DNA from: Terriglobales bacterium
Lineage (GTDB): Bacteria; Acidobacteriota; Terriglobia; Bryobacterales; Bryobacteraceae
Assembly (NCBI GenBank): GCA_021372245.1
Contig: JAJFUV010000096.1
Coordinates: forward strand, 62,001 to 126,000
Direction of reading: 5' to 3'
Length of the DNA: 64,000 bases
Shown: one piece after another, positions 35,149 through 63,116 of the stretch
How the letters are laid out: every line of letters starts with the position of its first letter
Numbering within the stretch: position 1 is the first letter of the stretch
Position numbers and translations under genes: made by a program
Notes under the pieces: generated by a model
The model's input: the letters and a program-made list of their open reading frames with translations, nothing else
What the model was told of the DNA's origin: nothing
Database searches by the model: none

Positions 35149-35200
35149 CGCTCGCTCCGGTTTTGGTATCCTCGTTCTACTGCTACTCTCGGAGGGTACC

Positions 35201-36586
35201 TTGGCGAGTCAAAGATATATGCGTCTGGCCGTGTCTACACCGGACAGCCTGGTTTTCGGCTGGTCACCTAAACCGGTCGCCTGCGGACACAGCCTGGTCA
35301 TCGGCGACGGGCAAGTCTATCCGGAAGTGAACTTCACTCTTCCGGCAATTGAGATTTCGCAAAGCACGTGGGGCACGATTGTCGGCCAATACGAGGAGAT
35401 GGCCCACCAGATCCTGCGGCGCGCTGTCGCGTTGAAGGTGCCGGGTATCGTGCTCGAATTCGAACTGCTGCCCGCCATGACCAATCAGCCCGAGTGGGGC
35501 GCCGAGATTACGGCGCTGCTGGCTGGCCACTTGCGCCGCGCCCATGAAGAGCACGGACTGCGCGGCGCCCTGCGCGTGACTCCCACCGACATACGCGACC
35601 AGGCCAAGCCACCAGTGCTGCGCCGGGGAGAGGCCTGGGCGCGGCTGCGGCGTAGCTTTCAGCTTTGCATAGAGGCCGGCGCCGACATCGTTTCTATTGA
35701 ATCCGTGGGCGGCAAGGAGGTTCACGATCAGGCCTTGATGTACGGCGATGTACGAGGGTCGGTGTTCGCGCTCGGTGTGCTGGCCGTGCGCGACATGCGC
35801 TGGCTGTGGGGTGAGATTACGGCTCTGTGCCGCGCCAGTGAGCGTGTGGTCCCCGGAGGCGATAGCGCCTGCGGCTTCGCTAACACCGCCATGCAGTTGG
35901 CGCATCAGCGCATGCTCCCCGAGGTCCTGGCCGCCGTGGATCGTGCCATGAGCGCCGTGCGCAGCTTGGCCGCCTTCGAGGCCGGCGCCGTTGGCCCTTC
36001 CAAGGACTGCGCTTATGAGGGGCCTATCATCAAGGCCATCACCGGCTGTCCCATTTCGATGGAAGGTAAGTCGGCCGCTTGCGCCCACTTCAGTCCTCTC
36101 GGCAACATCGCCTCCGCCATGTGCGACCTCTGGAGCAACGAGAGCGTGCAAAACGTGCGCCTGCTGAGCGGCAATGCGCCGGAGGCGTTCACCGAACTGC
36201 TGGCTTACGACTGCCGCCTGATGAACGAAGCCACGCGGAGTGGCGGCGCGCTTACTCTGCGCGACTGGCTCACCGCCTCCGACCAATGGCTCAGCCCGCA
36301 GGCTGCGGTGCTGTCGCCACAAGCCGTCTGGGACCTTGCGCAAGTGATCGTGTCCGTTGAGGGCGACTACCAGCGCACGGTGGCGGTGGCGCAGGCTGCC
36401 GTTCGTCTCCTGGAGCAATCGGTCGCCTCCGGACAGCTCTCACTTGCCTCGAAGAAAGAGAGGCAGTGGCTCGATCGGATCTCGCGCGAACTGGAGGCTC
36501 TGCCAGCGGACGAGTCGGCCTTGCTAGGCGAGATGCGCGAGAAGTACGGCGAAATCTTCGCCCCGTCGAGCTACGGGCTCGATTGA
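35201..36586 (+). CDS. Methanol:corrinoid methyltransferase-like protein (MtaB family)
   Basis: 461 residues, about the length of Methanosarcina MtaB, with collinear similarity along the whole chain as recalled from that family: WGAEITALLAGHLRRAHEEHG, LRVTPTDIRD, ESVGGKEVHDQA, GDSACGFANTAMQ, SLAAFEAGAVGPSKDCAYE, IIKAITGCPISMEGKSAACAH, SNESVQNVR. The MtaB zinc ligands E164, C220 and C269 correspond to E167, C224 and C270, all present. MtaB activates methanol and transfers its methyl group to the corrinoid protein MtaC. The TTG start at 35201 is set by GGAGGG at 35191-35196 and by agreement of the N-terminal length with MtaB. No mtaC-like gene is present. The last 16 bases overlap the convergent GT39 gene. 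Confidence 0.85.
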   Translation: MASQRYMRLAVSTPDSLVFGWSPKPVACGHSLVIGDGQVYPEVNFTLPAIEISQSTWGTIVGQYEEMAHQILRRAVALKVPGIVLEFELLPAMTNQPEWGAEITALLAGHLRRAHEEHGLRGALRVTPTDIRDQAKPPVLRRGEAWARLRRSFQLCIEAGADIVSIESVGGKEVHDQALMYGDVRGSVFALGVLAVRDMRWLWGEITALCRASERVVPGGDSACGFANTAMQLAHQRMLPEVLAAVDRAMSAVRSLAAFEAGAVGPSKDCAYEGPIIKAITGCPISMEGKSAACAHFSPLGNIASAMCDLWSNESVQNVRLLSGNAPEAFTELLAYDCRLMNEATRSGGALTLRDWLTASDQWLSPQAAVLSPQAVWDLAQVIVSVEGDYQRTVAVAQAAVRLLEQSVASGQLSLASKKERQWLDRISRELEALPADESALLGEMREKYGEIFAPSSYGLD

Positions 36587-38031: not shown

Positions 38032-39589
38032 GCGCCTCCCGCATCGGTGTGATACCCCAGACCGCCGGGTTCGCCCGCAGGTCCTTGGCACAAGGGCCGG
38101 CATCCGGGACGAACAGCCATCCAAAACCACGCTTCTTAAGCACGGATATCGCGGCTCGGCGCACGTCGCCAGGCGGCGATGGCCGCACGGCCGCTTCCAG
38201 CATCGCCCGCACAGCGCGCCCGCCCCCCGACTCTCCGGCGACAATGACTCTCGCCGAGCAGTAAGCTCGCGCCGGCTCCGCCAGGGCGAAAACTAGTCCG
38301 CCTTTCCCGGCCACTTCGTCGATTGTGCGCGCCCAGCCGAAGGCAGGATACATCCGCGGCATGAGGTATGCGTCTTCGCTCACGCGATGCAGGGCCGCTT
38401 TCAGCGGCCATTCGCGCAGCCGCCACGTGTCCGGCCAGGAGTAGACAGTGGTCACCTGCGGGAGCGACATTACGGCATGGGCAGCAACCAGCAAGGGAAT
38501 CATGCCCGGTGAATCCATCAGTGCAATTCCCATGGCAAGGGCAACGAACACCGCCAGGGGCAGCGCCGCTTCGGGATGCGCTGCGCCGACGAGCCACAGC
38601 GCCGCGAATGCCGCTCCGGCCAAGGCCCGCCTGCCCGTGGGCTTACGCAGAGCGAGCAATCCCAACGGCGCCAGCAGAAAAACAGGTCCGAAGAAGCTTT
38701 GCCCGGTTGCGCCCATCGTGGTCAGTTCAATGGCCCTGCCCATCAGATACTCCGGTCTCGCTGCCCGCTGGATCGGCTCGACACTGGCGGATGAGGTCCC
38801 AATGGTCAGGGCAAAAGCCAGCAGCGCGCCGGCAACCACGACCATCCGCCGTTGTCCCGTGTTACGCCACAATTCGAGCGCGTAATAGCAGAAGAACAAT
38901 GTGCAGGCTAAGGCCGCCTCGGTACGTGCGGATGTCGCATCGACGGCCGCCAGCGGGCTCAAGAAGATCACGAATCCGGCAAACATTCCCGCGTTTGCAC
39001 ATCCGCTTCGCCGCCCGTAACTCGCCAGCCCCAGGGCCAGCGCGGCCAGGAAGCCCAAGTGCGCCAACGCGGCTGAGACGTGCCGCCCCACCAGAAACGC
39101 AGGCAGATAGAAGAACTCGATGGCGCTTGGCCGCGGCTCCACGATTCCGGCGACCGGCGCCGGCAAGCCTCGGGCTTCCCGCATCTGCTCCACCCGTCCG
39201 AGATGGTTACCGGTGAGGCTGGTTTCAGGAGCAGCGGCGTACACAACGTACATCAACAGAAAACCAGCGAACAAAGCCGCGCACACGTAGCGCGTTCTCC
39301 TGCTCAGAGGTGGCAGCGATTCACACGGCCCTCGCTTGCGCCAGGCCAAGAATGCGGCGGCGATCAGGATTGAAGCCAGCGTCACGAATACACCTTTGCG
39401 GGCCACGTGGAGCCACGCCAGTAGCCACGCAGCCGCGCTCCAGCAAGCCGCGCCCGCCACGAAGGCAAACAACCGCTCCTCCTCGCGCGCCAGCCGGACC
39501 CGCAGCGCGCTGAGCAGCAGTCGCCCCGCCGCTAGGGCGCCCGAAAGGGTCAACAAGGCCCCCGCTAATACATAGAACGTTGTCTTCAT
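38003..39589 (-). CDS. Polytopic membrane protein of unknown function
   Basis: 528 residues, start ATG at 39589. About nine or ten hydrophobic helices (YVLAGALLTLSGALAAGRLLL, YVCAALFAGFLLMYVVYAA, MFAGFVIFLSPLAAV) precede a soluble C-terminal part (DAYLMPRMYPAFGWARTIDEV to EAHDAIVYRLD). The layout resembles membrane glycosyltransferases, but the diagnostic loop acids were not identified. It overlaps the GT39-like gene by 29 bases on the same strand, so the pair is probably translated together in cell-envelope glycan work. Confidence 0.6.
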   Translation of the reverse strand: MKTTFYVLAGALLTLSGALAAGRLLLSALRVRLAREEERLFAFVAGAACWSAAAWLLAWLHVARKGVFVTLASILIAAAFLAWRKRGPCESLPPLSRRTRYVCAALFAGFLLMYVVYAAAPETSLTGNHLGRVEQMREARGLPAPVAGIVEPRPSAIEFFYLPAFLVGRHVSAALAHLGFLAALALGLASYGRRSGCANAGMFAGFVIFLSPLAAVDATSARTEAALACTLFFCYYALELWRNTGQRRMVVVAGALLAFALTIGTSSASVEPIQRAARPEYLMGRAIELTTMGATGQSFFGPVFLLAPLGLLALRKPTGRRALAGAAFAALWLVGAAHPEAALPLAVFVALAMGIALMDSPGMIPLLVAAHAVMSLPQVTTVYSWPDTWRLREWPLKAALHRVSEDAYLMPRMYPAFGWARTIDEVAGKGGLVFALAEPARAYCSARVIVAGESGGGRAVRAMLEAAVRPSPPGDVRRAAISVLKKRGFGWLFVPDAGPCAKDLRANPAVWGITPMREAHDAIVYRLD

Positions 39590-39732
39590 TGGCGCTTGAA
39601 TTCCGCCGCCACGGCGGAAGATTCGGCACTGTGTCGTCAGGATCGAAACGAATTCTACACTTCACAGGCATTTTACACGGCACGTGGTACTCCCAGTTGA
39701 ATCACCCGTGCGAGGCTTGGTACAAGTCATCT

Positions 39733-40971
39733 ATGCATGCCTCTGGCTCGCTGGTGCCGCTGCTGTGGCAGAAGCCTTTGGATTTTGCGTTGCTTCGCGG
39801 CACTCCGTTCAATTGTCTGGTAATCGATCCCGCTTCGCAGCCTCCGGCATCAACTGCTGTAGAAGCCGCCCGGCAGACGGGCTTCCACGTCATCTCCATC
39901 GCGGATGCGCCCGCCACCGTGCTGAGTGATTGTACCTGGCCGCGCGTGGACGCTGGCGGCAAAGACGGTGCCGCCTCCGGCCCCACGGGGTTGCCCTGGA
40001 TCGAAACGAACGGCTGGCGCGTCCGGCTGGCACGCGCGAAAGATGCCACCCGGCCGGTCTGGGTTCGGCATGGAGGACTACCCGAGAAGACCGCATTGCC
40101 GCTGACGGGGGCAGCTTACGCCCTTGCCGTGGCAGATGCCGCCGCGCATGGGGGCGCCTGGATTGTCGCGTTGGATTCCGCGCTGAGACAGGGACTGGCT
40201 GCGAGCGACCCGGCCAGCCTTTCCAGGTGGCGTGAACTGACCGCCGCCGCGAGTTTCTTCAACCTCCATGCCGGTTGGGCCACGATGCGCCCGCAGGCCG
40301 CGTTGGGTGTCGTCTCGGACTTCGCCGGGGAAAACGAATTTATCGCAACCGAGTTCTTGAACCTGCTCGCGCGCCGCCAGGTCGGCTACCGTATCCTCAC
40401 CGGACAGCACGTTTCGCAGGCTGATATAAACGGGCTGAACGCGCTGCTTTACGCCGCCCGCCTGGCACCTTCGCGAGACGTGTTGGGTCTGTTTACGGCA
40501 TTCGCGCGTTCTGGCGGGCTCTCTATTCTGCCGGCGTCTGCTTCCTCAATTGTCCCGTCCGGCATCGTCGAGGAACAGAACCATGCCGGGTTCAACGTGC
40601 GCGGCTGGGGACAGGGCCGCATCGCCGTCGCCAAGCAGGACTGGGACGATCCTTACACCGCGGCACGGGACGTTCACATGTTGATGAGCCGGCGCCGCGA
40701 CCATCTCCATCTTTTCAATGCCAGCTCGATCAACACTTACGCGACGGCCGGCGCTGGCGGCACGACGGCCCTGGTGCACCTCTTGAATTACTCGCTTCGC
40801 ACGCCGGCGGCTCCCGTTACGCTCGCCGTGAGGAACCGCTACCGGCAGGCGCGGCTGTGGACGCTGGGGTCGAGCGGCCCTGCGGCGCTGGGGATGTCAG
40901 CCGAGGCGGAGTGGCTGGAGATGCCACTGCCTCCGTTTTCGATGTATGCTGCAATTGAGTTGTTCGCTTAG
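39733..40971 (+). CDS. Hypothetical protein, unknown function
   Basis: 412 residues. The frame is open from 39580, but the first residues are not protein-like; the ATG at 39733 (MHASGSLVPLLWQKPLDFALL) gives a sensible start, though no SD stands out. The body has alternating helix/strand segments (IVALDSALRQGLAA, LGVVSDFAGENEFIATEFLNLLARRQVGYRIL) and a beta-rich tail (LVHLLNYSLRTPAAPVTLAV...LEMPLPPFSMYAAIEL) resembling the end of a glycoside hydrolase. No family recognised. The DUF362 gene follows after 8 bases, so the two are likely expressed together. Confidence 0.55.
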   Translation: MHASGSLVPLLWQKPLDFALLRGTPFNCLVIDPASQPPASTAVEAARQTGFHVISIADAPATVLSDCTWPRVDAGGKDGAASGPTGLPWIETNGWRVRLARAKDATRPVWVRHGGLPEKTALPLTGAAYALAVADAAAHGGAWIVALDSALRQGLAASDPASLSRWRELTAAASFFNLHAGWATMRPQAALGVVSDFAGENEFIATEFLNLLARRQVGYRILTGQHVSQADINGLNALLYAARLAPSRDVLGLFTAFARSGGLSILPASASSIVPSGIVEEQNHAGFNVRGWGQGRIAVAKQDWDDPYTAARDVHMLMSRRRDHLHLFNASSINTYATAGAGGTTALVHLLNYSLRTPAAPVTLAVRNRYRQARLWTLGSSGPAALGMSAEAEWLEMPLPPFSMYAAIELFA

Positions 40972-40979
40972 GGGGGACC

Positions 40980-42131
40980 ATGCCGAACCAGTACTCCCGA
41001 CGCGTCTGGCTTCAGGCCGCGGCGGCGTCCGCGGCCGGCTCCTGTCTTGCTCCGGCGCTTCGGGCCGGGCCTTCCGCCGTCGTCTCAGTGGCCAAGTGCA
41101 CCGGCTACGGCCCCACGCTGGTCCCTTTGATTGCGAAAATGTTCGACCAGGTCGGCGGTCTTGCCCGTCTGGTGAACGGCAAAACGGTGGCCATCAAGTT
41201 GAACCTCACAGGAAGTCCGGATTATCGCCTGGGCACCCTGGCCGCTGGCATGGCGCAGTGGGTGCATCCGAGTGTGGTCGGCGCGGTTGTTCACCTGATG
41301 GGGCGCGCCGGTGCGCGGCGCATCAGGCTTCTGGAAAGCCCCTGGTCGACCTCAGAGCCCGTCGAAGAGTACATGCTCCAGGCGAATTGGGATGTGGATG
41401 CCATTCGTTTGGCCGCCCCGCGAGTCGAATTCGAGAACACCGGCAACCTGGGCTCAGGCAAGGCCTATGCTCGTTTCTCCGTCCCCAACGGCGGCCTATT
41501 GTTCTCAGCCTATGATTTGAATCATTCGTATAGGGATTGCGACGTCTTCGTCTCGCTGGCGAAGCTGAAGGAGCACAAGACGACCGGCATCACGCTGGCC
41601 ATGAAGAACTGCTTCGGCATTACGCCTTGCACGATATACGGGGATCACGCTCCCGTTGACGAGGCCGGTACTGAACCCCGAGGGGGGCGCGGCCTGCTTC
41701 ACAGCGGTAACCGCCAGCCAGCAAAGTGCTCCCCGGCGGAGAAGGACCCTTCATCCCCGCGCCAGGGGGGCTACAGGGTGCCGCGTGCGGTGGCGGACTT
41801 GGTCGCTGCGCGGCCCGTGCATCTGTCCATCATCGACGGTATCCATTCCATGGCGGGCGGGGAAGGCCCCTGGTCCGGGGATTGCCAGCCCGTGAAGCCG
41901 GAGTTGCTAATCGTAGGCACAAACGTGGTTTCCACCGATGCCGTCGGGATGGCCTTGATGGGTTTCGATCCCACAGCCGGCCGCGGCACCGCTCCCTTCG
42001 AAAACTGCGACAGCACCCTGCGGCTGGCCGAATCTCTGGGAGCCGGTACCCGGGACCTGAACCGCATCGAGATCGCTGGAACCCCCGTCCGCGAGGCGGT
42101 GTTCCCATTCCGCGGCAGGTCCGCGGCGTGA
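40980..42131 (+). CDS. DUF362 family protein with Tat signal
   Basis: 383 residues. The Tat signal YSRRVWLQAAAASAAGSCLAP follows a GGGGGA SD next to the ATG at 40980. DUF362 motifs are VKLNLTG-like AIKLNLTGSPDYR, FVSLAKLKEHKTTGITLAMKNCFG and SIIDGIHSMAGGEGPWSG. Family members are thought to be redox or iron-sulfur-linked proteins of unknown reaction; no ferredoxin-type cysteine cluster is visible here. A basic, proline-rich stretch of ~45 residues (DEAGTEPRGGRGLLHSGNRQ...) interrupts the domain and may be a surface loop. The 3' end is followed by the repeat region at 42156-42280. Confidence 0.8.
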   Translation: MPNQYSRRVWLQAAAASAAGSCLAPALRAGPSAVVSVAKCTGYGPTLVPLIAKMFDQVGGLARLVNGKTVAIKLNLTGSPDYRLGTLAAGMAQWVHPSVVGAVVHLMGRAGARRIRLLESPWSTSEPVEEYMLQANWDVDAIRLAAPRVEFENTGNLGSGKAYARFSVPNGGLLFSAYDLNHSYRDCDVFVSLAKLKEHKTTGITLAMKNCFGITPCTIYGDHAPVDEAGTEPRGGRGLLHSGNRQPAKCSPAEKDPSSPRQGGYRVPRAVADLVAARPVHLSIIDGIHSMAGGEGPWSGDCQPVKPELLIVGTNVVSTDAVGMALMGFDPTAGRGTAPFENCDSTLRLAESLGAGTRDLNRIEIAGTPVREAVFPFRGRSAA

Positions 42132-43359: not shown

Positions 43360-43642
43360 CCAGTGTCGCTCCCCACCCTCCCGCTTCCGCCGGGGCGTCT
43401 CCAAAGCAAACGACGAACGGCAACTGTGTCAGGACCGAGCGTACAATCTCGCGTTGCACACCGATTCCGCGGCCGTGAATGATGCGCAGTGCGGTGAAGC
43501 CCAGCCGGTGAGCCTCCAGAAGGTACTCGCGCACCACTTCTTTCACGTCCCTCGGCGGGACGCTGTGCAGGTCGAAAACGTCGGTGATGGGGATGCGGAG
43601 GGGGTCTTCGTCCTCCCCTTCGTCCCAGTCGCTATCGAACAC
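43319..43642 (-). CDS. Smr domain protein
   Basis: About 107 residues. The Smr (small MutS-related) pattern is clear: DVFDLHSVPPRDVKEVVREYL, then GFTALRIIHGRGIGVQREIV and a C-terminal strand GGWGATLVTL. Smr domains are nucleases or nucleic-acid binders that occur alone or at the end of MutS2. The GTG at 43642, overlapping the alpha-galactosidase end by 11 bases, is the only sensible start; no clear SD, so translation is probably coupled. The acidic N-terminal lead (DSDWDEGEDED) is unusual. The 3' end overlaps the convergent gene by 41 bases. Confidence 0.78.
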   Translation of the reverse strand: MFDSDWDEGEDEDPLRIPITDVFDLHSVPPRDVKEVVREYLLEAHRLGFTALRIIHGRGIGVQREIVRSVLTQLPFVVCFGDAPAEAGGWGATLVTLAAPEHPTPKE

Positions 43643-45128
43643 GAATAAGCACCACGCCGTGCCGGCCCACGGCAGTTTCGAACTTGCCGTCGAACGCGCC
43701 CAGATCCCGCTGCCGCCACAAGTCGCGAACCTTGCGCTTGCCCTGGATGCCGAGCGCAGTCCAGTTCGCAACGATGCGAGCTTCCGCCTCGCCGCGGTTG
43801 AACAGGCCCACCGCCAGGGAGCCGTCCTCCAGCGGCTTGGCCCACACTTCGCTCGTCCCATCCTTCCACACGCGCCGGCCCTGCTTGCCGAGAACGTCCT
43901 GGTTCACCTCGATCACTTCATCGTTGGTGAGCAGGCTCAGGGTGAAATCGTCAAACCTGGTCATGTCGCCGCCGAAGAACAGAGGCGCGGCCAGCAGGCT
44001 CCAGAGGCTCACGTAGCTGTACTGTTCGTTGGGTGTGAGCGGCGTCGGCCCGACCTTCTTGTTCCAGATGATCTGACCGATGTTGATGTTGTCAGGATCG
44101 TTCCAACCGCCGGGCCCGGCCCACTGCTCCTTGCCGTCCTGCGAAAAGCCGATGGCCTCGATGCTGTTCCAGAAAGTGCCGTTCTTGGGGATTCCCACGT
44201 CGCCCGTAGTGCGCCAGAAGTTGCCACCCACCTCGCGGCCCCACTGCCAGACGTCACCCATGCCGTACTGGCAGAGGTTGTAGACGAAGTCGCGGTCCAA
44301 CCGCTTGAGGATGTCGCCCATGAGTTGATACGGTTTCTTCAACTCGGCAAGAGATTTGTCCTTGGCAACCTTGCTATACGCGCACCAGTCGTACTTCAAA
44401 AAATCGAAACCCCAGCGGGCGAACTGCCGCGCGTCCTGCTCCTCGTGCTGCCAGCTCGCCTCGCACTTTGCACAGGTCAGCGGGCCGGGACCGATGTAGA
44501 TGCCGGCCTTCAGCCCCTTGGCGTGGATGTAATCGGTCAACGCCTTCATGTCCGGGAATTTCGCGTTGGGCCGGAGGTTGCCATCGGGGTCGCGCACCGG
44601 CGGCCCGAACTCGGGACTCGTGAAGGCGGGGTAGCGGTTCCAGCCGTCATCGATATTCACATAGGAATACCCGTGATCGGCCAGGCCGCTCGAAACCATG
44701 GCATCGGCCTCGGCCCGGACCAGTTCGTCGCTTACCTTGGTGTAGCAGTGATACCAGGTGCTGTATCCCATGGGCGGCGTGAGCGCGAGCGTGTCGCCCG
44801 CCACGATTTTGAAGGCCCGCTGCGCGCTACCTTTCTTGTTACTTGCGCGCAGCCTGATCGTGTACTCACCCTTCGCCGGCGTGGTACCCGTGATGATGCC
44901 GGTGCGTGCGTCGAGCGTGAGACCTGCCGGCAGGCCCTTCGCCGAGAAGCTCATAGGCCGCTCGCCGCTCGCCGGAACGCGGTATAGGAAGGGATGGCCA
45001 GGACGCGCCCCATAGACTTTTGCCCCATTGATGCGAGGCTTCGGAGAGGCCTTGGGCGTCAGGATGCCGGGTTCGGCGGCGGCGAGGGAAATTGCCGCGA
45101 CAATGGCTGCAAGCGCGGTGCGGATCAT
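43632..45128 (-). CDS. Secreted alpha-galactosidase, GH27
   Basis: 498 residues. Signal peptide MIRTALAAIVAAISLAAAEP, then a putative Ig-like domain (SFSAKGLPAGLTLDARTGIITG) to about 110. The GH27 barrel starts at LTPPMGYSTWYHCY. The nucleophile is D247 in FLKYDWC and the acid/base is D310 in WRTTGDV; GWNDPDNINIG and APLFFGGDM are also typical. Probably removes alpha-linked galactose from oligosaccharides in the periplasm. The extra N-terminal Ig domain is seen in plant-polymer-degrading bacteria. It begins 3 bases after the URO-D stop, so the two are in one operon. Confidence 0.93.
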   Translation of the reverse strand: MIRTALAAIVAAISLAAAEPGILTPKASPKPRINGAKVYGARPGHPFLYRVPASGERPMSFSAKGLPAGLTLDARTGIITGTTPAKGEYTIRLRASNKKGSAQRAFKIVAGDTLALTPPMGYSTWYHCYTKVSDELVRAEADAMVSSGLADHGYSYVNIDDGWNRYPAFTSPEFGPPVRDPDGNLRPNAKFPDMKALTDYIHAKGLKAGIYIGPGPLTCAKCEASWQHEEQDARQFARWGFDFLKYDWCAYSKVAKDKSLAELKKPYQLMGDILKRLDRDFVYNLCQYGMGDVWQWGREVGGNFWRTTGDVGIPKNGTFWNSIEAIGFSQDGKEQWAGPGGWNDPDNINIGQIIWNKKVGPTPLTPNEQYSYVSLWSLLAAPLFFGGDMTRFDDFTLSLLTNDEVIEVNQDVLGKQGRRVWKDGTSEVWAKPLEDGSLAVGLFNRGEAEARIVANWTALGIQGKRKVRDLWRQRDLGAFDGKFETAVGRHGVVLIRVR

Positions 45129-45131
45129 GTC

Positions 45132-46217
45132 CTATAGGTCCTCCCGGATGGGATAGCGGCCGAATTCTTTGGCTGCGTTGTAGAACGCAAAAATGTTTTC
45201 CAGAGGCACTTCGGCTTGAATATTGTGCGCCGGCGAGAGGATCAGCCCGCCGCCTTTTCCGGCGGTTCTCACGCGCGTCTTCACCTCATTGATGACGTCC
45301 GAAACGGAGCCGAACGGCATCACTTCCTGAATGTCGATCGTGCCCCACAGGGTCAGCTTGTCGCCGAAGTCTTTTTTCACCTGCGCCGGGTTCATGCTCT
45401 TGGGCTGGATCGGGTTCAGGATATCCAGGCCGATTTCGACCAGATCCGAAAGGATCGGGTAGACGTAGCCATCGGAGTGGAAGGCGATCTTCACGTTCGG
45501 GTTGATGCTCTTCCACTCGGCAAAGAGTTTGGCGTAACGCGGCTTGAGGAATTCCCGGAATACTTCCGGTCTGATCAGCATGCGGTTCTGCATGCCGACG
45601 TCGTCGCCAATCCAGATCACGTCGACGCCCATGTGCGCGAACTTGCGTCCGGCTGTCGCGATCCAGCCCATGAGTTTGTCCAGATAGGCGTGCGCGAAGT
45701 CCTTCTCTGCCGCGATGTCCATGAGAACCTGCTCCATGCCGCGCAAATACCAGGCCAGTTCGAACAGGGTGCAGGCGACGCCTGCCATGATGCCGTATTC
45801 CTCGCCATACTCGTCCATGAGCATGCGCGCGCCCAGGTAGCGGTCCTCGCGTTCGAAATCGGGCATCTCGAATTCGGCCGGGTCTTTAATGTCCGCCAGC
45901 GGGTGGCGCACCATCTCCGTGTAGGCGCCGGTGGGATTCTCGAACCACTTCCAGCCGATGCCCCACTCGTCGGTGTACTCGCGGTCCGGCCGCGCATAGT
46001 AGCCCGTGCAGGGGCCGACCCACGAGATAAGGAAGTCGTGGTCCATGAGGATGGGTAGAGGGCCGCCGGCGGCCTTGTAGGTCTCCGTGCGGGTGCTGTC
46101 CACGCCGAGGTGGCGCAGCATCTTCATCTCCGCTTCCGGCGTGTACCACACGCAGATGGGAACCCGATCGGGCTCCTGGTGGTTGATGGCAGTAAGAAAG
46201 CGCTCTTTATGAGTCAC
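45132..46217 (-). CDS. Uroporphyrinogen-decarboxylase-fold protein (MtaA/CmuA-like), not HemE
   Basis: 361 residues. The N-terminus VTHKERFLTAINHQEPDRVPI is typical of URO-D-family methyltransferase-like proteins; the GTG at 46217 has GAGGAA as SD, so it is preferred over the first ATG at 46256. Later parts are GMEQVLMDIAAEKDFAH, RPEVFREFLKPRYAKLFAEW and DILNPIQPKSMNPAQVK. The arginine motif of HemE is missing. MtaA-type zinc binding needs HxC; here the position is H247-S-D249, and the second cysteine position is replaced by the LSPAHNIQ segment. Methyltransferase activity is therefore uncertain. First gene of a unit with the alpha-galactosidase and Smr genes. Confidence 0.72.
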   Translation of the reverse strand: MTHKERFLTAINHQEPDRVPICVWYTPEAEMKMLRHLGVDSTRTETYKAAGGPLPILMDHDFLISWVGPCTGYYARPDREYTDEWGIGWKWFENPTGAYTEMVRHPLADIKDPAEFEMPDFEREDRYLGARMLMDEYGEEYGIMAGVACTLFELAWYLRGMEQVLMDIAAEKDFAHAYLDKLMGWIATAGRKFAHMGVDVIWIGDDVGMQNRMLIRPEVFREFLKPRYAKLFAEWKSINPNVKIAFHSDGYVYPILSDLVEIGLDILNPIQPKSMNPAQVKKDFGDKLTLWGTIDIQEVMPFGSVSDVINEVKTRVRTAGKGGGLILSPAHNIQAEVPLENIFAFYNAAKEFGRYPIREDL

Positions 46218-46278
46218 GTGGAGTTCCTCGCTGTGGTTCCTGAGCGAGTATATCAATGCCGGCCGTGCCAGCGGCGGC

Positions 46279-61644: not shown

Positions 61645-63116
61645 TTCGTAAAGTCAGCCCGCACATCACGCAGAACGAACCGCTGCTGTTCGAAATCAGC
61701 TCTCCCGGCAAGCGCGCCTATCAGTTGCCCGCGCTGGACGTTCCTGCGGCCGATCCGGCCAAAGTCCTGGGCGCGGCAAACGTTCGCGACGAAATCACCG
61801 GATTCCCTGAAGTAAGCGAGGTAGAACTGGTGCGGCACTTCTCGCGCCTGTCTACGTGGAACTATTCGATCGACCTCGGAATGTACCCGCTCGGGTCCTG
61901 CACCATGAAATACAATCCCAGGATCAACGAGCAGGTCGCGGGATTCGAGGGCTTGGCCTGGGCGCACCCCTATCAGCCGGAATCGCTCTCGCAAGGCGCC
62001 ATGGAAATCATGGCTCGGCTGGAAGACGCGCTGGCCGAGATCACCGGCATGGACGCCGTGACACTGCAGCCGGCCGCTGGCGCGCACGGCGAACTGACCG
62101 GGATCCTGCTGGTCCGGGCGGCACTCACCGCGCGCGGGAACCCGCGGAAAGAGATCCTGGTTCCGGATTCGGCGCATGGCACCAATCCGGCCACGGCGGC
62201 CATGGCGGGCTATGCCGTCGAAAGCATCAAGTCCAACAGCCAGGGCATGATCGATCTCGACGTGCTCTCGCGCGCCGTGACGGAAGATGTGGCCGCACTG
62301 ATGGTCACCAATCCGAACACCCTCGGTATCTTCGAGGAGAACATCGCACACGCCGCCGGCATCCTGCACGGGAAAGGCGCGTTGCTGTACATGGACGGCG
62401 CCAACATGAACGCGTTGGTGGGCGTAACGCGTCCCGGCGATTTCGGCGTCGACGTGATGCACCTGAACCTGCACAAGACGTTCTCGACGCCGCACGGTGG
62501 CGGCGGCCCCGGTTCCGGCCCCGTGGCTGTCAAGAAGGCGATCGAACCCTTCCTGCCGGTGCCCCGTCTCAGAACGGAAGCCGGCCAGTGGCGTTTCGAC
62601 TTCGCACGTCCACAATCAATCGGACGTGTCCGCGCCTTCTATGGCAACTTCGGCATGATGGTGCGCGCGCTGGCTTACATCCTGGCTTACGGCGGAGATG
62701 GGCTCGCCAAGGCCACCATGGACGCGGTGCTCAACGCCAATTACATCCGTGCGCGTCTGGATGCACACTACGACCTGCCACACGATGCGCCGACCCTGCA
62801 CGAGTGCGTGTTCAGCGACTCGCGTCAGGCCGCCCGCGGCGTGAAGACCGGCGACATCGCCAAACGGCTCATTGATTACGGCTTCCACCCTTACACGGTG
62901 AGTTTTCCGCTCATCGTGCACGGCGCCATGATGATCGAACCGACCGAAAGCGAAAGTAAGCACGAACTGGATCTGTTTATCGACGCTCTGATCTCCATCG
63001 CCAAAGAAGTGGAAGAGAATCCCGACCAGGTGCTCACAGCGCCCCACTCGACGCGCATAGGCAGGGTGGACGAGGTGGCCGCGGCCCGGAAGCCCGTGTT
63101 ACGCTGGCATCCTTGA
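61641..63116 (+). CDS. gcvPB: Glycine dehydrogenase (decarboxylating) subunit 2
   Basis: 511 residues. C-terminal half of the P-protein, which decarboxylates glycine with PLP. The Schiff-base lysine is K279 in [46 protein letters not shown] and [13 protein letters not shown] are strongly conserved. ATG start overlapping gcvPA by 4 bases (ATGA). A two-subunit P-protein is common in Acidobacteria and Firmicutes. The next gene starts at its stop codon. Confidence 0.96.

Follow-up and report, generated by a model that had tools for sequence, protein, structure and literature searches.

Introduction

The closest described relatives of the system analysed here are corrinoid-dependent methyltransferases of several kinds. 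The best known is the methanol methyltransferase MtaABC of Methanosarcina and of acetogens such as Moorella and Acetobacterium. Among bacteria of the Roseobacter group, Phaeobacter has a methionine synthase split into separate corrinoid, homocysteine S-methyltransferase (HMT) and pterin proteins, and a DUF1638 protein and a RamA-like protein are also needed (PMC5764234); in Ruegeria, glycine betaine demethylation relies on this corrinoid core as well (PMC12478193). The type 1 mlp clusters are defined by at least two Mlps, a corrinoid protein and an activase, all in one direction (Kountz and Balskus, PMC10418091). Finally, Acidobacteriota of the thawing peatland of Stordalen Mire are reported to express mtaB (PMC10805028).

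Plant methanol is common in soil and peat, where Acidobacteriota are abundant, and members of this phylum, given their reported mtaB expression, may compete with methanogens for this substrate. Here we analysed an mtaB gene located in a window of 64,000 nucleotides (C279:62001-126000, positions 62,001 to 126,000 of contig JAJFUV010000096.1) of the genome of a soil acidobacterium. The assembly is fragmented, comprising 6.36 Mb in 368 contigs with 5.3% contamination, and our statements of absence at the genome level rest on family searches. A sequence-only reading of the window had proposed an MtaB as a candidate for an undescribed system, which may use another corrinoid protein or another methyl donor and may be linked to methanol from plant pectin.

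Results

Identity, fold and zinc site of the MtaB product

The gene and the elements assigned to it are the following:

35201..36586, plus strand: mtaB, MtaB-family methanol:corrinoid methyltransferase, 461 aa, an orphan with respect to the surrounding genes
35191..35195, plus strand: probable Shine-Dalgarno sequence GGAGG, 5' of the TTG start (sequence ...CTCTCGGAGGGTACCTTGGCG...)
35699..35701, plus strand: codon of zinc ligand E167 (M. barkeri E164), from the alignment; invariant in 32 diverse bacterial MtaBs
35870..35872, plus strand: codon of zinc ligand C224 (M. barkeri C220), from the alignment; invariant in the same 32 sequences
36008..36010, plus strand: codon of zinc ligand C270 (M. 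barkeri C269), from the alignment; invariant in the same 32 sequences

The open reading frame begins at position 35201 with a TTG codon that follows GGAGG at a distance of five bases, and its stop codon ends at 36586. The coordinates, the frame and the collinearity with MtaB proposed for the 461-residue product were all confirmed: the Pfam model PF12176 matched residues 4-459 with 527.5 bits (E 3.8e-158; cut-off 25), and the M. barkeri MtaB of the MtaBC complex (2i2x_A), the sole relative of solved structure, aligned end to end with 39% identity over 452 residues. The correspondence of the three zinc ligands to those of M. barkeri was exact in this alignment, and the Glu-Cys-Cys set was conserved in all of the acidobacterial MtaBs checked (22/22). 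A structure check, suggested together with the original proposal, gave a model predicted from the family alignment with a mean pLDDT of 94.3 and the MtaB fold; it superimposed on 2i2x_A with a Z score of 60.4 and an rmsd of 1.2 Å for 452 residues; the second-best structure had a Z of 15.

The phylogenetic check placed the product among the acidobacterial MtaBs (35 rows, support 100/94) and in no other family. This group adjoins one copy from Methylomirabilota inside a wide bacterial family, and a long branch leads to the archaeal enzyme. Identity to the product was about 70% for orphan mtaB copies of other genera and 47-49% for MtaBs from Clostridiales/Bacillota MAGs. The methanogen-centred NCBIfam equivalog MtaB_Meth scored 428.3 bits, under its cut-off of 720; for this reason we do not claim the label of methanogen-type MtaB, and the substrate of the enzyme may differ. 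Taken together, sequence and predicted fold identify the product as a genuine MtaB with intact sites, the probable substrate of which is methanol.

Surroundings of mtaB

The immediate neighbours of mtaB encode a protein of the DHDPS family upstream, an LssY_C protein and two membrane proteins. The DHDPS-like assignment made earlier was corroborated by a PF00701 match; the idea that these neighbours signal a new system was not, as none of them recurred beside mtaB in the neighbourhoods of 20 relatives (0/20), and the DHDPS-like and membrane proteins were dropped as parts of the system on this ground. A recurrent cluster beside mtaB (c4) was also discarded, as it consisted of implausible antisense-like open frames.

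Two other features of the window were recorded. A uroporphyrinogen decarboxylase-like (URO-D) copy at 45132-46256 on the minus strand adjoins an alpha-galactosidase gene (43632-45128). In addition, the contig carries two copies of a gene pair in which a gene for a protein of 400-463 aa with no match in Pfam precedes one for a DUF362 protein; one copy is in the window (39580-42131) and the other beside the corrinoid genes described below (L018:1798-4306).

A corrinoid hub on the same contig

Searches of the genome for B12-binding and cap domains matched nothing in the window, in agreement with the earlier observation that it contains no MtaC-like gene. The same search, which the sequence-only reading had recommended, did reveal an MtaC-like corrinoid protein with a DLHDIG motif, and its gene (C279:47920-48558) shares the contig with mtaB, from which it is separated by 48.6 kb, at a distance of 13.4 kb from the nearest end of the window. 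Only this free-standing protein and MetH combine a cap domain with a B12 domain in the genome. Since MtaC-like orthologues directly adjoin mtaB in relatives (see below), the notion of an absent or exotic partner is unsupported; the apparent lack of a partner is most likely a window-edge effect, and a partner absent from a window need not be absent from the genome.

The MtaC-like gene belongs to an operon of six genes, hereafter the hub, which is conserved in relatives and arranged on a single strand nearly end to end in the order uroD377-uroD419-mtaC-hmt-duf1638-mtaA:

L018:9880-11013: uroD377, URO-D protein, 377 aa
L018:8578-9837: uroD419, URO-D protein, 419 aa
L018:7921-8559 (C279:47920-48558): mtaC, MtaC-like corrinoid protein, 212 aa (PF02310, PF02607, DLHDIG)
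L018:7034-7906: hmt, homocysteine S-methyltransferase (HMT), 290 aa
L018:6281-7027, minus strand: DUF1638 protein
L018:5277-6284: mtaA, URO-D protein of the MtaA/CmuA type, 335 aa

The models of MtgC and MtbC gave the MtaC-like protein higher scores than those of MtaC did, and its relatives of solved structure were 1y80 (Moorella), 7xcn, 3ezx, MetH and MtaC (2i2x_B). HMT aligned with the N-terminal homocysteine domain of MetH, cysteines included. The search for an MtaA homologue, also proposed previously, had a mixed outcome: the 335-aa URO-D protein shares 28% identity with the MtaA of methanogens (4ay7), including the His, Cys and Cys residues, but its TIGR01463 score was 150 against a cut-off of 235. 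In the URO-D superfamily the His-Cys-Cys set has been described as typical of S-methyltransferases, O-methyl substrates being associated with a Cys that is replaced or lost (PMC10418091). The 419-aa protein keeps His-x-Cys and lacks the third Cys at that position, and on this ground it could act on an O-methyl donor.

Among 27 DUF1638 sequences the invariant residues include E14, H36, C69, R87, H89, D90, C91 and W119, a pattern suggestive of catalysis or metal binding by a protein tied to corrinoid enzymes. The predicted model of the DUF1638 protein (pLDDT 84.7) had weak structural matches, the best with a Z of 7.7, and gave no functional clue. A RhaT-like transporter facing the hub was rejected as a component because it is not conserved there. 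No PF14574 activase match was found near the hub; RACo/RamA-type reactivases are present elsewhere in the genome, on contigs C288, C48 and C262. URO-D-family matches number 27 in the genome, a true HemE probably among them, against a single free-standing corrinoid protein; many donor enzymes may thus depend on one hub.

Pairing of the hub with mtaB in relatives

Four relatives (G211, G083, G129 and G229) have a corrinoid gene directly preceding mtaB on the same strand. In G211 mtaB comes directly after the corrinoid gene, and the remaining hub lies about 4 kb off with its usual corrinoid slot empty; in another genome (G199) mtaB is inserted between the HMT gene and DUF1638. The probability that chance alone produces four such adjacencies, estimated roughly by hand for 24 genomes with some 5,500 genes each, is near 1e-10. 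In the acidobacterial MtaB clade 31 named loci were compared, which come partly from the same genomes as the family set and partly overlap with the four above. A corrinoid gene was present within 2.5 kb of mtaB in 15 of these (on the same strand in 14) and at a distance of 15-84 bp in 10; DUF1638 was close to mtaB in nine and a RACo activase in seven. A Verrucomicrobiota MAG (JAFAIO010000037.1) carries a seven-gene run, mtaA-uroD419-mtaC-mtaB-DUF1638-RACo-HMT, with sequences of the acidobacterial type; this run was either transferred from one phylum to another or binned wrongly with its contig.

An mtaB match was detected in 26 of the 237 genomes of the family, 24 of them strong, in 22 genera; close corrinoid homologues occurred in 79 and DUF1638 in 75. 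The other two, G044 and G142, showed partial matches only (about 100-140 residues), which suggests decay or assembly breaks. The mtaC gene was present in 21 of the 24 mtaB-positive genomes versus 58 of the other 213 (Fisher p 1e-8, relatedness ignored), and DUF1638 in 19/24 versus 56/213 (p 6e-7, relatedness likewise ignored). Among 396 genomes sampled evenly across the phylum, mtaB was found only in the genome under study, implying that it is rare outside the family and a second acidobacterial clade of named MAGs.

Adjacency and co-occurrence thus identify the hub, for the group, as the predicted partner of mtaB. Of the 22 family genomes with flanks read, 16 have mtaB away from the hub, several of their contigs being short, and pairing in most mtaB-positive members would therefore need action in trans. 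As mtaB is outside the operon here too, we infer that MtaB and MtaC pair in trans in this genome. The tree of corrinoid proteins lacked the resolution to group the copy of this genome with either the mtaB-adjacent or the hub copies. The 58 family genomes that have the corrinoid gene and lack mtaB imply that methanol is not the only or main donor of the hub, and the neighbouring URO-D proteins are the obvious other donors.

Methyl acceptor and folate exit

The pterin-binding matches (PF00809) in the genome were dihydropteroate synthase (DHPS) and MetH only, and family searches of the genome found neither a methylcorrinoid:tetrahydrofolate methyltransferase of the AcsE/MtvA/MtgA type nor a separate pterin-binding module for a split methionine synthase. 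Other mtaB loci had no pterin methyltransferase either, a weak negative given that a single MetH domain was the query. Hence the usual bacterial folate exit is without a recognised enzyme here, and the acceptors that can be named are thiols; a thiol or homocysteine is the probable methyl acceptor. As the genome also contains a complete MetH, methionine synthesis does not need the hub.

CODH/ACS genes

Genes for CODH, acetyl-CoA synthase, AcsC and an AcsV-like activase form one run over two contigs of the assembly (G000), C327:1-4597 (L204) and C288:1-5796 (L203), which overlap by exactly 141 bases. The open frame of acetyl-CoA synthase continues into an AcsD/CdhD domain. AcsE was not found in the run, and an upstream fragment was weakly like the methionine synthase model. 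We did not expect these genes in this family. A tetranucleotide test of the two contigs did not discriminate, other genomes of the family scoring as high.

Discussion

We propose, with a probability of roughly 60%, that MtaB acts as a methanol-donor module in trans on a shared corrinoid hub, with the MtaC-like protein as its partner and thiols as acceptors. The Glu-Cys-Cys zinc site of MtaB would take methanol and transfer its methyl group to Co(I)-MtaC. From methyl-MtaC the group would pass to homocysteine through HMT, giving methionine, or alternatively to a thiol substrate of the MtaA-like His-Cys-Cys enzyme. Cobalt oxidised to Co(II) would be re-reduced by a RACo/RamA-type activase, presumably aided by DUF1638. 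MtaB would thus be a plug-in module of the hub, and in relatives that lack mtaB other methyl donors probably enter through the neighbouring URO-D proteins. A narrower version, in which MtaB, the MtaC-like protein and the free HMT make up a folate-free, methanol-fed methionine synthase as one branch of the shared hub, other O-methyl donors entering through URO-D enzymes in soil Acidobacteriota, is a tentative suggestion that we consider doubtful.

The CODH/ACS run raises the question of an acetogen-like route, in which the methyl group of methanol passes from MtaB and MtaC to tetrahydrofolate or to the corrinoid iron-sulfur protein and ends in acetyl-CoA. Known methanol acetogens use such a route (PMC13391211), and the CODH, acetyl-CoA synthase, AcsC and AcsV-like genes would allow it. 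However, no pterin methyltransferase of the AcsE/MtvA/MtgA type accompanies them, DHPS and MetH being the only pterin-binding matches, the contigs involved may be assembly contamination, and the genome encodes haem-copper oxidases, which suggest an aerobic or facultative life. We consider this route unlikely.

The methyl donor itself could also be different, a methoxylated compound for instance, delivered by an MtaB-fold enzyme to the same hub. The score under the methanogen-based NCBIfam cut-off and the long branch to the archaeal enzyme would fit such a substrate, as would a hub otherwise served by URO-D proteins with no donor assigned; yet the Glu-Cys-Cys ligands and the MtaB fold (rmsd 1.2 Å) are retained, the MtaBs of Clostridiales/Bacillota MAGs are still 47-49% identical, and we found in the literature no alternative substrate for the MtaB family, all of which makes another donor rather improbable. 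It is also very improbable that mtaB is a relic, or a recent acquisition, without a working partner in this genome. Its sporadic distribution (26/237 genomes, two with fragments only) and the lack of conserved neighbours here would be expected of such a gene, but the frame is full-length, with a ribosome site and the invariant residues kept; orphan copies of other genera share about 70% identity with it; a corrinoid partner and reactivases are present in the genome; and mtaB expression has been reported for Acidobacteriota as a group (PMC10805028). The proposal of a donor module acting in trans on the hub also bears on how such transcripts are read: if MtaB is tied to the methylation of homocysteine or another thiol, and not to folate or coenzyme M, its expression would mean methyl-group supply and not growth on methanol.

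Comparison with known systems

With MtaABC our system shares the MtaB fold, the zinc ligands and a corrinoid partner, together with an MtaA-like His-Cys-Cys URO-D enzyme of the methanogen type and a RamA/RACo-type activase. In contrast to MtaABC, mtaB is here 48.6 kb from mtaC, the corrinoid protein is nearer to the MtgC/MtbC models, no H4folate methyltransferase was found, and HMT and DUF1638 are additional members.

The split methionine synthase of Phaeobacter and the MtgBCDE system of Ruegeria resemble the hub in their free corrinoid protein, free HMT, DUF1638 and RamA-like activase, and in that one corrinoid core is common to a donor enzyme and methionine synthesis. By analogy, MtaB would be to the hub what MtgB is to the Ruegeria system, that is, its donor module. 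The donor enzyme here is however MtaB or the URO-D proteins and not the MttB-family MtgB, the set is extended by an MtaA-like enzyme, the genome has an intact MetH as well, and there is no pterin module (MtgD), for which reason we do not file the hub as a split methionine synthase. Like the type 1 mlp clusters, the hub groups a corrinoid protein with several URO-D methyltransferases, comes without an H4folate methyltransferase and has a thiol as its proposed acceptor; nevertheless, the hub of this genome contains no activase and so falls outside their definition, only one of its URO-D proteins is clearly MtaA-like, and MtaB, HMT and DUF1638 do not figure in the definition of these clusters.

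The transcripts of Stordalen Mire likewise come from an acidobacterial MtaB, and MAGs of fen, bog and palsa in the Stordalen style fall in the same MtaB clade; the section of PMC10805028 on donor-enzyme genes (mtxB), however, deals with neither a hub nor an acceptor. The earlier description of an undescribed system therefore stands only in part: acidobacterial mtaB expression has been published there, whereas in the literature we found no description of an MtaB joined to an HMT/DUF1638/MtaA-like hub without a folate exit. In summary, the components are all of known kinds, and it is their assembly, an MtaB linked to this corrinoid hub, that appears to be new.
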